Source: an uncultured Chloroflexales bacterium
Lineage (GTDB): Bacteria > Chloroflexota > Chloroflexia > Chloroflexales > Chloroflexaceae
DNA: 64,000 nt
Reading direction: 5' to 3'
NCBI GenBank assembly: GCA_937918935.1
Contig: CAKZSI010000039.1
Coordinates: forward strand, 1 to 64,000
Notes under the pieces: generated by a model
The model's input: the letters and a program-made list of their open reading frames with translations, nothing else
Told to the model about the DNA's origin: nothing
The model's database searches: none
Made by a program: the position numbers and the translations under genes
Shown: positions 12,759 to 18,936 of the stretch, piece after piece
Position numbering within the stretch: position 1 is the first letter of the stretch
How the letters are laid out: each line of letters starts with the position of its first letter

Positions 12759-14204
12759 TCAATGGGCGGGCGCGGCGTCAGGTGTGCCAAAGCCGTTGCG
12801 ACGGAAGACAATCTTACCGCCGGCCATGGTCAACATCACCTGGCCCTTGAGGCGCTGGCCGTGCAGGGGGGTGTTCTGCCCCCGCGAGACGAAGCGCATC
12901 GCGTCTACCGTCCAGGCGGCATCGGGGTCGAAGATCACGATGTCGGCGCGGGCGCCGGGGCGCAGGGTGGCCGGCGAACGGCCAAGCACCTGGGCCGGCC
13001 CTTCGGTCAGCCGGGCGACCAGGTCCACCATATCCATTTCGCCGCGATGGACCAGCGAGAGGGCCAGGGCCAGAGCCGTTTCCAGGCTGCTGATGCCTGG
13101 GGCGGCCAGGCCGTACTCGCACTCCTTCTCGACGCGCGATTGGGGGCTGTGGCCGGTGGCGATGGCGTCAATCGTGCCATCGCGTAAGCCCTCGGCCAGG
13201 GCCTCGATGTCCTCCTCGGTCCGCAGCGGGGGACAAACGCGGGTGCTCGAGTCGTAGGGCGGCAGACGGGTGGGGTCGAGCCAGGACGGCAGGCCCAATT
13301 CAGGATGGGGGTTGCGCTGGCGGCGTTGCCGGGCAGGCGCCTTCGGCGCTGGATCGTGGGCGGCGAGGGCGCCCAGCACCCAGCGATCGGTGAGAGTCAG
13401 GTGGTGCGGCGACACCTCGGCGGTCACACGCGCACCGCGGGCCCTGGCAGCGCGGATGAGGGCCACGCCACCCGCGGTGCTCACCTGGCAGATGTGCAGA
13501 TGGGCGCCGGTCAATTCGGCCAGGGCGATGTCACGGGCGATCAGCGCCTCTTCGGCGGCGGCGGGGAAGCCCGGCAAGCCCAGGCGCGTGCTTACTGCGC
13601 CCTCGTGCATGGCCCAGCCGGCGCTCAGGCGCGCCTCCTGGCAGAAACTCATCACCGGCAACCCCAGGGCGGCGGCGTAGGCCAGCGCGTGCCGCATCAA
13701 GGCGGCGTCGCTCAGCGCCCGGTCCCCATCGCTGAAGGCGATGCAACCTGCCTCGGCCAGTTCGCCCAGGTCCGCCAGGGCGCGCCCCTCGCGGCCCACG
13801 GTCAGCGCACCTACCACATCTACATGCACGTAGCCTTCCCGGCGGGCAAGCTCCTGCACCAGCCGCACCGTCGCCGCCGTGTCATGGGTGGGATGCTCCG
13901 TAGGCATAGCGCAGACGGTGGTGAAGCCGCCGTGGGCCGCGGCCCGGGTGCCGCTGGCGATGGTCTCTTTGTGCTCTTCCCCCGGCTGGCGCAGGTAGGC
14001 GTGGAGATCGGTGAAGCCCGGCGCCACCACCGCGCCACGGGCATCAATAATCTCTACACCATCGTCCAACACATGCTGTTCCGCGGCGCGGTCAGCGATC
14101 TCAAAGAGGCGCTCCACCTTGCCGTCGCTTACCAGCACATCGCCTACCGTGGCAACCCGCTGCGCCGGGTCGATGATCGAGCCGTTTTTGATCAGGTAGC
14201 GCAT
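12759..14204 (-). CDS. pyrC': Dihydroorotase homologue lacking metal ligands (PyrC' type)
   Basis: 481 aa, amidohydrolase fold, clearly homologous along its length to type I dihydroorotases (PGFTDLHAYLRQPGEE, GFTTVCAMP, AEVSPHHLTLTD, CPPLRTEED). Metal and catalytic residues are replaced: the second His of DxHxH is Tyr70, the His of the HAED/HCED motif is Phe187, the His of HVST is Gln240, and the catalytic Asp of ATDHAPH is Gly351, with the final His changed to Gln355. It should therefore be inactive as a hydrolase. In Pseudomonas an inactive PyrC' is a structural partner needed for assembly of aspartate transcarbamoylase; here it lies in the same operon, 123 nt after pyrB, which suggests the same role. 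An active dihydroorotase must then be encoded elsewhere. Confidence 0.88.
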   Translation of the reverse strand: MRYLIKNGSIIDPAQRVATVGDVLVSDGKVERLFEIADRAAEQHVLDDGVEIIDARGAVVAPGFTDLHAYLRQPGEEHKETIASGTRAAAHGGFTTVCAMPTEHPTHDTAATVRLVQELARREGYVHVDVVGALTVGREGRALADLGELAEAGCIAFSDGDRALSDAALMRHALAYAAALGLPVMSFCQEARLSAGWAMHEGAVSTRLGLPGFPAAAEEALIARDIALAELTGAHLHICQVSTAGGVALIRAARARGARVTAEVSPHHLTLTDRWVLGALAAHDPAPKAPARQRRQRNPHPELGLPSWLDPTRLPPYDSSTRVCPPLRTEEDIEALAEGLRDGTIDAIATGHSPQSRVEKECEYGLAAPGISSLETALALALSLVHRGEMDMVDLVARLTEGPAQVLGRSPATLRPGARADIVIFDPDAAWTVDAMRFVSRGQNTPLHGQRLKGQVMLTMAGGKIVFRRNGFGTPDAAPAH

Positions 14205-14327: not shown

Positions 14328-15281
14328 TCAACCTGCCAGACGGTACAACAGGGCCATGCGCACGGCGACGCCGTTGGTCACCTGTTCTTCAATTACCGCG
14401 TTCGGAGCGGTGGCAGCCTCGGGTGAGATCTCGACGCCCTCGTTCATCGGGCCGGGATGCATGATCAGCACCCTTTCGCCGAGACGCGCCAGCCGCTCGG
14501 GGGTCAGCCCGTAGAGGCGCGTGTACTCGCGCAACGAGGGCAGCAGACCGGCCTGTTGGCGCTCCTTCTGCAACCGCAGGACCATCACCACATCGGCGCT
14601 GCTTAACACCTCGTCGAGCTGGTAGGAGATCGTCACCTCCGGCCAGGTCGCCGTCCAGTAGGCAGGCGGACCGAGCAGCGTCGCCGGCCCGCAGAGGGTT
14701 ACACGGGCGCCCATACGGGTGAGGCCCCAGAGATTGGAGCGGGCCACGCGGCTGTGAACAACATCGCCCAGAATGAGCACATGGACGCCGCGGATCTGCC
14801 CGAGGCGTTCACGCATCGTGTAGAGGTCGAGCAGAGCCTGGGTGGGATGGGCGTGGCGCCCGTCGCCCGCGTTGATCACCGAGCCGCGGAAGTGTTGCGC
14901 GACGAGGTAAGGTGCACCGGACTGGCTGTGACGGATCACCACCACGTCGGCGCCCAGGGCCTGGAGCGTGCGCACGGTGTCAACCAGGGACTCGCCCTTC
15001 TCAACGCTGCTGCCACGGGCGCTGAAGTTGACAATATTGGCCGAGAGAGCGCGGGCGGCCAGTTCAAAGGAGATGCGCGTGCGGGTGCTATCCTCGTAGA
15101 ACATATTCACGATGGTACGCCCGCGCAGGGCCGGCACCTGCTTGATCTCACGGGAGAGCACCTCTTTCATGCTCTCGGTGGTCGTGAGGATCTCCTCGAT
15201 CTCTGTAGCCGAAAAATCGTCCAGGTCAATCACATGGCGGCGGCGTGAGCGTTCCGTCGAGGATGTTGGCATACCGTTCAA
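14328..15281 (-). CDS. pyrB: Aspartate carbamoyltransferase catalytic subunit
   Basis: 317 aa; condenses carbamoyl phosphate with aspartate in the second step of UMP synthesis. All signatures are present: STRTRISFE (carbamoyl-phosphate loop), SSVEKGES (the 80s loop), GDGRHAHPTQALLDLYT and HPGPMNEGVEI. Length is normal. The start is TTG at 15281 (AGGA six nt upstream) or the ATG at 15272; I give the former. It is co-transcribed with pyrR upstream and pyrC' downstream, under the PyrR attenuator at 16187-16299. No pyrI regulatory subunit is present, consistent with an ATCase/PyrC' complex of the class-A type. Confidence 0.95.
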   Translation of the reverse strand: MNGMPTSSTERSRRRHVIDLDDFSATEIEEILTTTESMKEVLSREIKQVPALRGRTIVNMFYEDSTRTRISFELAARALSANIVNFSARGSSVEKGESLVDTVRTLQALGADVVVIRHSQSGAPYLVAQHFRGSVINAGDGRHAHPTQALLDLYTMRERLGQIRGVHVLILGDVVHSRVARSNLWGLTRMGARVTLCGPATLLGPPAYWTATWPEVTISYQLDEVLSSADVVMVLRLQKERQQAGLLPSLREYTRLYGLTPERLARLGERVLIMHPGPMNEGVEISPEAATAPNAVIEEQVTNGVAVRMALLYRLAG

Positions 15282-15399: not shown

Positions 15400-16299
<900 letters not shown>

Positions 16300-16308
16300 G
16301 GCGGTTAG

Positions 16309-16337
16309 ATTGTAGCACCGTGACGGGGCGGAGTCAA
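16309..16337 (-). promoter_or_regulatory. pyr operon promoter
   Basis: TTGACT (16332-16337), 17-bp spacer, TACAAT (16309-16314) on the minus strand. The predicted start near 16302 gives a leader of about 350 nt to pyrR. Confidence 0.85.
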
Positions 16338-16565: not shown

Positions 16566-17705
16566 ATGCCTCGAGTGTTACTGCTTCACGCCTCTGTTGG
16601 CACTGGCCACAAGCGAGCCGCCGAGGCGTTGGCTGCCGCTTTTATCCGTCGCCAACCCGGTGAGGTGCGGGTGGAAGACGTGCTCGACCACACCTCACGT
16701 CTCTTTCGTGTCGCCTATGCCCGCTCGTATCTGGAATTGACCGACCGCGCGCCCCTCGTCTGGGGCTATTTTTACACTCAGAGCAACGTCGATCCCAATC
16801 TCGCCGAGTTTACCAATAACCTGCGCCGGATCGTCGAGAGTATCGGCACCACGGGGCTGAAGGATCTGTTACGGGCCTTTCTCCCCCAGGTGATTATCTG
16901 CACGCACTTTTTACCGATGGAACTCCTGGTACGCTACCGGCGCAGCGCGCAACTCACGCAGCCGATCTACTGCGTCATCACTGACTACGCCGCCCACACC
17001 TTCTGGACCTATACCGAGATTGATGGCTATTTTGTCGGCGACACGCAGACCCGCGACCAGTTGATCGCCCGCGGAGTGAGCGCCGGGCAGATCTGCGTCA
17101 GCGGCATTCCGGTTGATCCGCAGATCGCGGAACCTAAAGACCCGGTCGAGATCCGCAACCGCTACGGCCTGCCGGTGGAAGGGCCGATCATCACCCTCTT
17201 TGGCGGCGGGGTAGACGAGGAGCACGTGCGAGTGATCGTGCAGGGTCTCAAACGCAGTGAGATCGAGGCGACGCTGATCGTGGTAGCGGGGCGCAATCCA
17301 ACCCTGGTGGAGTACCTCGCCGACGAGCGTTCTACACCGCGTTTGAACCTCCGGCTGTACGGGTACGTCCATTTTGTTGATGACCTGATCGTCGCCAGTG
17401 ATCTGGTAATCACCAAAGCGGGCGGGCTGATCGTCAGCGAAGTGCTGGCGCGCGGCGTGCCGCTGGTGGTGATTGACCCCATACCGGGGCACGAGGAGTG
17501 GAACGCTGACTACGTCGTCCGCTCGTGCGCGGGGGTCCAGTTACGTATGGCCGAGTCAGTGCCGGCGACGGTGGAACGCTTGCTCAACCGTCCCCAGTTG
17601 CTGGCCGAGATGCGCGAGAATGCCCACTGTGTCGCCCGGCCCCGCGCCGCCGCCGTGATCGCCGAAAAAGTGATCAGCGATTTCAACGACCGTCGCTACC
17701 ATTGA
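16566..17705 (+). CDS. GT28 glycolipid glycosyltransferase (MGDG-synthase family) 1
   Basis: 379-aa GT-B enzyme of the monogalactosyl/monoglucosyl-diacylglycerol synthase family. The N-terminal domain begins with VLLLHASVGTGHKRAAEAL, the GxGH loop that marks this family, and includes ITDYAAHTFW. The C-terminal domain has the nucleotide-sugar site (TLFGGGVDEEHV, DLVITKAGGLIVSEVLARGVP, with the K-A-G-G motif). It should transfer galactose or glucose from a UDP-sugar to diacylglycerol at the inner membrane face. AGGA lies 8 nt before the ATG. It is followed after 13 nt by a paralogue, so the two probably act in series (mono- then di-hexosyl lipid). Confidence 0.85.
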   Translation: MPRVLLLHASVGTGHKRAAEALAAAFIRRQPGEVRVEDVLDHTSRLFRVAYARSYLELTDRAPLVWGYFYTQSNVDPNLAEFTNNLRRIVESIGTTGLKDLLRAFLPQVIICTHFLPMELLVRYRRSAQLTQPIYCVITDYAAHTFWTYTEIDGYFVGDTQTRDQLIARGVSAGQICVSGIPVDPQIAEPKDPVEIRNRYGLPVEGPIITLFGGGVDEEHVRVIVQGLKRSEIEATLIVVAGRNPTLVEYLADERSTPRLNLRLYGYVHFVDDLIVASDLVITKAGGLIVSEVLARGVPLVVIDPIPGHEEWNADYVVRSCAGVQLRMAESVPATVERLLNRPQLLAEMRENAHCVARPRAAAVIAEKVISDFNDRRYH

Positions 17706-17718
17706 GTGAGGAAGGCCT

Positions 17719-18936
17719 ATGAACGGGTCGGTAGATGTGCTCTTTGCGATCTCGGACACCGGCGGCGGCCACCGCAGCGCCGCGGTCGCCATCAGCGCCG
17801 GGCTGGACGAGGCCAGCAACGATGCGCTCTCCTGGTCAATTGACGATATTCTGCGCCTCACCGACTTCCCCGGTGTGCGCGGCGCGCCCGAGCATTACGA
17901 GCGTCTCTCGACGCGCTGGCTGCGCCTGTACGATCTGACCTTCCAACTTACCAACACTACCCGCACGGTGGATGTGCTCTCACGCCTGGTCTTTCTAACG
18001 GCGCGCCGCAACCTGGTGCGCCTCTTGCTGGAGCGCCAGCCCCGGCTGGTGGTCTCCACCCATCCGCTGGTGCACCGGCTGGTCGTGGCGGCGCGGCAGA
18101 CGCGCCGGCTGCCCTTCCGGGTGGTCACCGTCGTTACCGACCTGGTGAGCCTGCATGCCTCGTGGACGTACCCTGGTGTGGACCTCGCGCTGGTGCCTAC
18201 TGACGAAGCCTACCAGATCATGTACCGGCGCGGGATGCGGCCCTCAAAGCTGCGCCGCACGGGCTTCCCCGTCCACCCGAAATTCGCCAACTACACCACA
18301 CCGCGCTCCGAGACCCGCCGGCAGTTGGGGCTCGACGAGCGCTTCACCATCCTGCTGACCGCCGGCGGGGTTGGCTCCGGGCGTCTGGGGGAACTGGTCG
18401 TGGAACTGGAACGCGCCTTTCCCGAAAAGCAACTCCTGGTGGTGACGGGCAAGAATCGCGCCGTGTATGATGAACTGCAACGGCGCCACGGTTCACCGCA
18501 TAGCCGCATCTATGGGTTCGTGAACAACATGGAAGCGTTGATGGCGGCGAGCGACCTGGTCGTGACCAAGGCCGGCCCGGGGACGTTGATGGAGGCCCTG
18601 GTGATGCGCAAGCCGGTCATCGTCACCGAAGCGGTGGGGATGCAGGAGCGGGGCAACATTGACTTCGTGCTCAACTACGAACTGGGACTCTTCTGCCCGA
18701 CCAATGAGCGCATCCTGGGCGCAGTGCGCGAGTTGGAGGAGCCGCAACGCTACGCCGACACCCTGCGCCGCCTTGAGGGCGCCGTGCCGCGAGACGGATC
18801 CAGACAGATCGCGCAGATCCTTATGGAACAACTCTCGCTGGTGAATGAACGGGCCAGCGCCGAGCCCCGCCGCCCGCGCCTCCTGCAATTGCGACCCTGG
18901 GGGCGGCGGCTGCAACGCGGGCGCCGCATGCGATAA
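17719..18936 (+). CDS. GT28 glycolipid glycosyltransferase (MGDG-synthase family) 2
   Basis: 405-aa paralogue of the preceding gene. It keeps the N-terminal SDTGGGHRSAAVAI loop, VTVVTDLVSLHASW, and the C-terminal DLVVTKAGPGTLMEALVMRKPVI donor-binding segment. The tail is basic (Arg-rich RPWGRRLQRGRRMR), suited to electrostatic membrane attachment. AGGAAG lies just before the ATG and only 13 nt separate it from the upstream stop, so the pair is an operon. Divergence between the two suggests different acceptors or donor sugars; which is which cannot be told from sequence. Chloroflexia are known to contain MGDG- and DGDG-type glycolipids. Confidence 0.85.
   Translation: MNGSVDVLFAISDTGGGHRSAAVAISAGLDEASNDALSWSIDDILRLTDFPGVRGAPEHYERLSTRWLRLYDLTFQLTNTTRTVDVLSRLVFLTARRNLVRLLLERQPRLVVSTHPLVHRLVVAARQTRRLPFRVVTVVTDLVSLHASWTYPGVDLALVPTDEAYQIMYRRGMRPSKLRRTGFPVHPKFANYTTPRSETRRQLGLDERFTILLTAGGVGSGRLGELVVELERAFPEKQLLVVTGKNRAVYDELQRRHGSPHSRIYGFVNNMEALMAASDLVVTKAGPGTLMEALVMRKPVIVTEAVGMQERGNIDFVLNYELGLFCPTNERILGAVRELEEPQRYADTLRRLEGAVPRDGSRQIAQILMEQLSLVNERASAEPRRPRLLQLRPWGRRLQRGRRMR

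Follow-up and report, generated by a model that had tools for sequence, protein, structure and literature searches.

The locus described here raises the question of why a dihydroorotase (DHOase) homologue that has lost metal- and substrate-binding residues is kept next to the gene of the aspartate transcarbamoylase (ATCase) catalytic chain. Our preferred answer, to which we give a probability of about 0.78, is that the gene encodes a pseudo-dihydroorotase, i.e., a formerly active type I DHOase retained as a structural partner for PyrB within a class A-like ATCase. The locus lies in the window, which is the whole stretch of 64,000 nucleotides analyzed from an uncultured Chloroflexales bacterium, and comprises the following elements:

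12759..14204, minus strand: pyrC', type I dihydroorotase homologue with an eroded metal and substrate site, 481 aa
14328..15272, minus strand: pyrB, ATCase catalytic chain, with an ATG start at 15272 (the open reading frame opens with TTG at 15281)
15400..15951, minus strand: pyrR, pyr operon regulator / uracil phosphoribosyltransferase, 183 aa
16187..16305, minus strand: PyrR-binding RNA leader (RF00515), 44.1 bits, E 6e-4, below the gathering threshold of 54
16309..16337, minus strand: promoter-like site TTGACT-17-TACAAT, a consensus match only, just upstream of the leader

The catalytic motifs of PyrB are intact, and pyrB and pyrC' are separated by 123 bp on the same strand. No terminator-like site was found between pyrR, pyrB and pyrC' in the scanned intergenic stretches of the operon, and the leader carries a strong G+C terminator-like hairpin and a T run at its 3' end. 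The natural reading would be a single PyrR-attenuated operon with pyrC' as its last gene, in agreement with the initial annotation, which had proposed both an operon with pyrB and control by PyrR. In relatives, pyrB and pyrC mostly lie near each other or overlap on the same strand, and wherever an eroded pyrC could be read it adjoins pyrB directly. On the plus strand, and divergent from the pyr operon, two adjacent paralogous genes (16566-17705 and 17719-18936) encode glycosyltransferases of the MGDG-synthase family, which may make galactolipids for the photosynthetic apparatus.

Equivalent residues were assigned by alignment to the Aquifex DHOase, whose numbering is used for H63, D153 and the other catalytic positions, and to which the window PyrC' is 38% identical by structure. 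The codons replacing catalytic residues are:

13995..13997, minus strand: Tyr70 codon TAC, at the place of H63, an alpha-site Zn ligand
13899..13901, minus strand: Thr102 codon, at the place of the substrate-binding N95
13725..13727, minus strand: Gly160 codon, at the place of D153, an alpha-site Zn ligand
13644..13646, minus strand: Phe187 codon, at the place of H180 (beta-site)
13485..13487, minus strand: Gln240 codon, at the place of H232 (beta-site)
13152..13154, minus strand: Gly351 codon, at the place of D305
13140..13142, minus strand: Gln355 codon, at the place of H309

In addition, N278 is lost (Cys324), and H61 (His68), R65 (Arg72) and H306 (His352) are retained. The five substitutions on which the initial annotation had relied, Tyr70, Phe187, Gln240, Gly351 and Gln355, fall exactly at H63, H180, H232, D305 and H309; those at N95, D153 and N278 had been overlooked. 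Intact ligands shifted elsewhere in the protein had been named as evidence against a lost site. No such displaced ligand was found in the window PyrC', the columns of which align unambiguously with those of 28 intact Chloroflexales homologues.

These losses do not weigh equally. The Aquifex DHOase is mononuclear, its Zn being held by H61, H63 and D153 with D305 as the next closest residue, and its H180A/H232A double mutant remains active, with no change in kinetics (PMC3880350). Hence, Phe187 and Gln240 carry little weight and prove nothing alone, and the claim of a lost metal site stands on the disappearance of H63, D153, D305, N95 and H309. Judged from the sequence, H63Y, D153G and D305G together with N95T and H309Q make catalysis by the window PyrC' unlikely. 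Ligand loss is no proof of inactivity, because a Pseudomonas PyrC paralogue (PyrC2) without the conserved Zn residues was reported to be active (PMC2770081). This report, together with the tolerance of the Aquifex enzyme to the loss of H180 and H232, favors the view that PyrC' still works as a dihydroorotase, through an unusual mechanism that is metal-poor or metal-free, the type II enzyme described below being a second isozyme. Such a mechanism is nevertheless very improbable, the alpha-site ligands, the substrate Asn and His309 having been lost together, differently by lineage, and only beside another DHOase. The window PyrC' scores above the NCBIfam cut-off for type I dihydroorotases (TIGR00857, 356 bits vs 279.05) and lacks the combination of alpha-site Zn ligands and substrate residues expected of this type. 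Therefore, automatic annotation would name it an active dihydroorotase, a point to be corrected for Chloroflexus and Roseiflexus as well.

If PyrC' has lost its activity, as we propose, the third step of pyrimidine synthesis would depend on another enzyme. The genome of the window (G000, completeness 99.99%) carries a type II (E. coli-type) pyrC of 333 aa (L009, C62:69172-70152), which is a full member of TIGR00856 (353.8 bits vs a cut-off of 292.95). This copy keeps all nine catalytic residues, H16, H18, R20, N44, K102, H139, H177, D250 and H254 (HHRNKHHDH), and is predicted to be the separate active DHOase of the genome. The second intact pyrC for which the initial annotation had suggested a search is thereby found and, since L009 is present, the lack of any other dihydroorotase, which had been named as an argument against an inactive PyrC', does not apply. 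Across the class, the catalytic set is intact in all 39 full-length type II copies. Among the other amidohydrolases of the window genome, C22 was rejected as a DHOase candidate, being allantoinase/hydantoinase-like with a Lys site. The genome also holds two Photo_RC genes (G000:C63:5886-7582) and is that of a phototroph.

The distribution of both genes was followed in 158 genomes of the class, including those of cultured or enriched phototrophs (Chloroflexus, Roseiflexus, Candidatus Chloroploca, Oscillochloris and Viridilinea), and the PyrC site was readable in 89 of them. Type II pyrC occurs in 40 of the 158 genomes, all belonging to two phototrophic families, and none was found outside these families in a sample of 400 genomes of the phylum (27/400, all inside). 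The co-occurrence with erosion is one-to-one among readable genomes carrying type II pyrC, where the pyrB-linked PyrC is eroded in 35 and intact in none; among those without it, 51 of 54 are intact and three eroded. Within the order, at a completeness of at least 90%, the ratio of eroded to intact is 32/0 with type II and 1/18 without, the one eroded genome without it being G030. Two of the three exceptions (G002 and G026) are MAGs of 84-86% completeness whose close relatives have type II. The third, G030, is 99% complete, and its PyrC shows N95D and D153A only. This genome carries another DHOase with an 'IDDQVHFRE' motif (L155, G030:C131:5517-6860), found in 1 of the 158 genomes of the class, which we take to be of the Bacteroidota type. 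The genomes are not independent, and the PyrB tree offers three independent pairs at most, leaving a sign test without power. As phylogenetically independent contrasts are so few, strong p-values overstate independence, and the co-occurrence argument rests on the exact lineage match, the G030 exception and the residue patterns.

The initial annotation had spoken of an inactive protein of the Chloroflexia in general, which was too broad: most Chloroflexia have an intact PyrC, and erosion is restricted to lineages that gained another DHOase. Phototrophy as the cause of erosion was rejected because PyrC is intact in many phototrophs. Family f3 of the order gave the impression of a further eroded case, since its matches were split; the PyrC linked to its pyrB has TF at 152-153, where a different residue probably does the bridging, and has all other ligands, and the family was set aside. 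In this family (L167, L165, L161 and L159), an unrelated pyrC-pyrB pair stands in the opposite gene order with a pyrB about 35% identical to that of the window, and the operon was apparently replaced. Two apparent counterexamples with PyrB and no PyrC (G003 and G059) were set aside as contig edges, and G029 and G062 are further apparent cases of this kind. In G021, which has a type II pyrC, pyrC' is split over two overlapping frames near a contig edge (L098, G021:C439), through either an assembly error or true pseudogenization. In family f4, a single open frame of about 650 aa often covers both Photo_RC subunits, making it a fused reaction-centre gene.

Then, the number and order of the erosions were addressed with a PyrC tree from which the catalytic columns had been excluded. 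In this tree, 27 rows make up the main eroded clade (support 98), whose sister group is an intact clade from the same family; a Roseiflexus-like eroded clade adjoins the intact PyrC of G056 and G063, and separate eroded positions are held by G030 and, on a long branch, by G057/G058. Parsimony gives four changes within Chloroflexales, or five if lost core residues are never regained. Erosion occurred at least four to five times, and the residues lost differ. The 27 members of the main eroded clade do not have a single catalytic substitution in common: the Chloroflexus-like rows keep D305, the Oscillochloris-like G033-G037 keep D153 and G032 keeps N95. The ancestor of the clade therefore had a complete site, unless residues were regained. 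Other lineages are eroded in part and keep most ligands (the Roseiflexus D153E type, and G030 with N95D and D153A), and the inactivity of these PyrC, as read from their residues, is less sure.

The type II genes of the class group together (support 93) and have their nearest relatives outside Chloroflexota in other phyla. This grouping is consistent with one acquisition or with transfers among these families, in a tree that is poorly resolved. The group also takes in the type II pyrC of one stray MAG labelled Proteobacteria (L207, SXND01000238.1), by either mis-binning or transfer. A complete-site ancestor and the presence of type II in nearly all descendants suggest that the gain came first and the decay after. 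According to this scenario, an ancestor in the phototrophic Chloroflexales would have acquired type II pyrC, and its product would have become responsible for the third step of pyrimidine synthesis. Because of this replacement, DHOase catalysis by the ATCase-bound subunit would have become dispensable, and metal- and substrate-binding residues would have been lost separately in several descendant lineages. The remainder of PyrC' would have stayed under purifying selection since PyrB still needs it for assembly, stability or regulation.

As had been proposed in the initial annotation, the fold is kept and under selection. The AlphaFold model of PyrC' (pLDDT 90.3, pTM 0.90) has as its best PDB match 3d6n_A, the Aquifex DHOase from the ATCase complex, with a TM-score of 0.96 by target length, and the predicted fold is intact. 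Pairwise dN/dS in the eroded lineages ranges from 0.03 to 0.21 (about 0.1), similar to PyrB and type II PyrC, and confirms purifying selection at the codon level. In 37 eroded homologues, 157 columns conserved in at least 95% of the 28 intact relatives were scored. The ancestral residue is kept at 51% in catalytic columns vs 91% in the other conserved ones (p = 1.8e-4), the three most relaxed columns being N95, D153 and H309. Therefore, constraint was relaxed on the chemistry but not on the fold, and this relaxation of the catalytic columns again speaks against a working dihydroorotase. The vanished active site, the long branch of G057/G058 and the frameshift-split copy of G021 could also be taken as marks of a decaying relic without function. 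Such decay is hard to reconcile with dN/dS values like those of PyrB, with the 111 of 157 conserved columns retained in at least 90% of eroded homologues, and with the place beside pyrB in all cases that could be read, and we consider it extremely unlikely.

A Pro/Arg-rich insertion between residues 285 and 320 had been regarded as specific to the window protein and as a possible contact with PyrB. It includes one segment of low confidence:

13290..13346, minus strand: disordered part of the insertion, residues 287-305, predicted with pLDDT below 50

The segment between 'TDRWVLG' and 'STR' is long in active and eroded homologues of both families and shorter only outside them. The insertion is equally long in intact, active relatives; on this comparison it is not specific to the window protein and predates the loss of the active site. 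As active relatives carry it and disorder is predicted, a contact with PyrB is unsupported.

All 37 eroded homologues have kept the equivalents of H61 and H306 without exception. A pure scaffold would not need these two residues to be invariant, and this counts against our preferred reading. Instead, the emptied pocket with its invariant His68 and His352 could bind a ligand (a nucleotide or carbamoyl aspartate), making PyrC' a regulatory ATCase subunit like the regulatory dimers of E. coli. Pseudomonas ATCases of the same architecture are indeed inhibited by nucleotides, although Patel et al. ascribe this inhibition to destabilization and not to allostery. Moreover, the pocket residues vary freely between the eroded lineages (N95 to T/D/G/S/A; H180 to S/L/T/C/F), which argues against one conserved ligand site, and PyrR already controls transcription. 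A ligand-binding role is thus unlikely. It is equally doubtful that a former enzyme subunit became an allosteric ATCase subunit in several phototrophic Chloroflexales, independently of Proteobacteria, once an acquired enzyme had assumed its chemistry; if so, an emptied active site would have been turned into a regulatory site and not just abandoned. By analogy with known systems, PyrC' most likely acts as a structural partner for PyrB within a class A2-like holoenzyme, as in our preferred reading.

Pseudo-DHOases are already known from Pseudomonas, Sinorhizobium and fungi, and the origin of a pseudoenzyme is usually visible only as its end point. Here, a single bacterial order displays intact relatives, separately eroded lineages at different stages and the replacing enzyme, with one lineage having a different replacement. 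The sequence of events in which another enzyme comes first, decay follows and partner dependence holds the protein in place becomes directly testable, and the order offers a natural repeat experiment on the conversion of an enzyme into a non-catalytic partner. No description of a Chloroflexota pseudo-DHOase, or of a repeated origin matched to the gain of a replacing enzyme, was found in the open-access literature, the subscription literature lying outside the search. The kind of protein is known, and what is new is its separate and repeated origin in Chloroflexales, matched to an acquired replacing enzyme.

Among known systems, the Aquifex aeolicus class A1 ATCase-DHOase (3d6n) resembles the window pair in fold and gene partnership and presumably represents the ancestral state. 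The full catalytic set of the A1 enzyme is present in the intact relatives of the families of the window, whereas the window PyrC' has lost alpha-site H63, D153 and D305, the substrate residue N95, and H309. The inactive DHOase domain of the fungal CAD-like Ura2 is likewise a pseudo-DHOase attached to ATCase (an attachment that would hold for the window protein too), but it is a fused domain of a eukaryotic multienzyme with a separate origin (PMC7053772). The separate enzyme L009 is of the E. coli type (TIGR00856), differing from other members in that within Chloroflexota it is confined to the two phototrophic families. The closest functional likeness is with the Pseudomonas class A2 ATCase (PyrB with PyrC'/pDHO) and with Sinorhizobium PyrX, in which the gene after pyrB encodes a DHOase homologue lacking the Zn and substrate residues, with the active DHOase gene located elsewhere. 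In P. aeruginosa, the ATCase chain is an inactive monomer as long as the pseudo-DHOase is not bound (PMC7053772), and in S. meliloti disruption of pyrX, which adjoins pyrB, leads to pyrimidine auxotrophy (PMC5929573). The window shares the traits of class A2, namely a DHOase-homologous chain encoded with pyrB, the loss of Zn and substrate residues, and a separate DHOase, its activity here being predicted, so that the works-like relation is strong. In class A2, PyrB and PyrC' also form a dodecamer on which PyrB activity depends, and the PyrB-PyrC' pair of the window may do likewise. Common descent with the proteobacterial PyrC' was not found: the window protein nests within active Chloroflexales PyrC (support 98-99), whereas alphaproteobacterial and Acinetobacter PyrC' form a distant separate clade in which H61 is lost too, in a tree without Pseudomonas PyrC'. 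The window PyrC' hence arose separately from the sampled proteobacterial PyrC' lineage and works like an A2 subunit.
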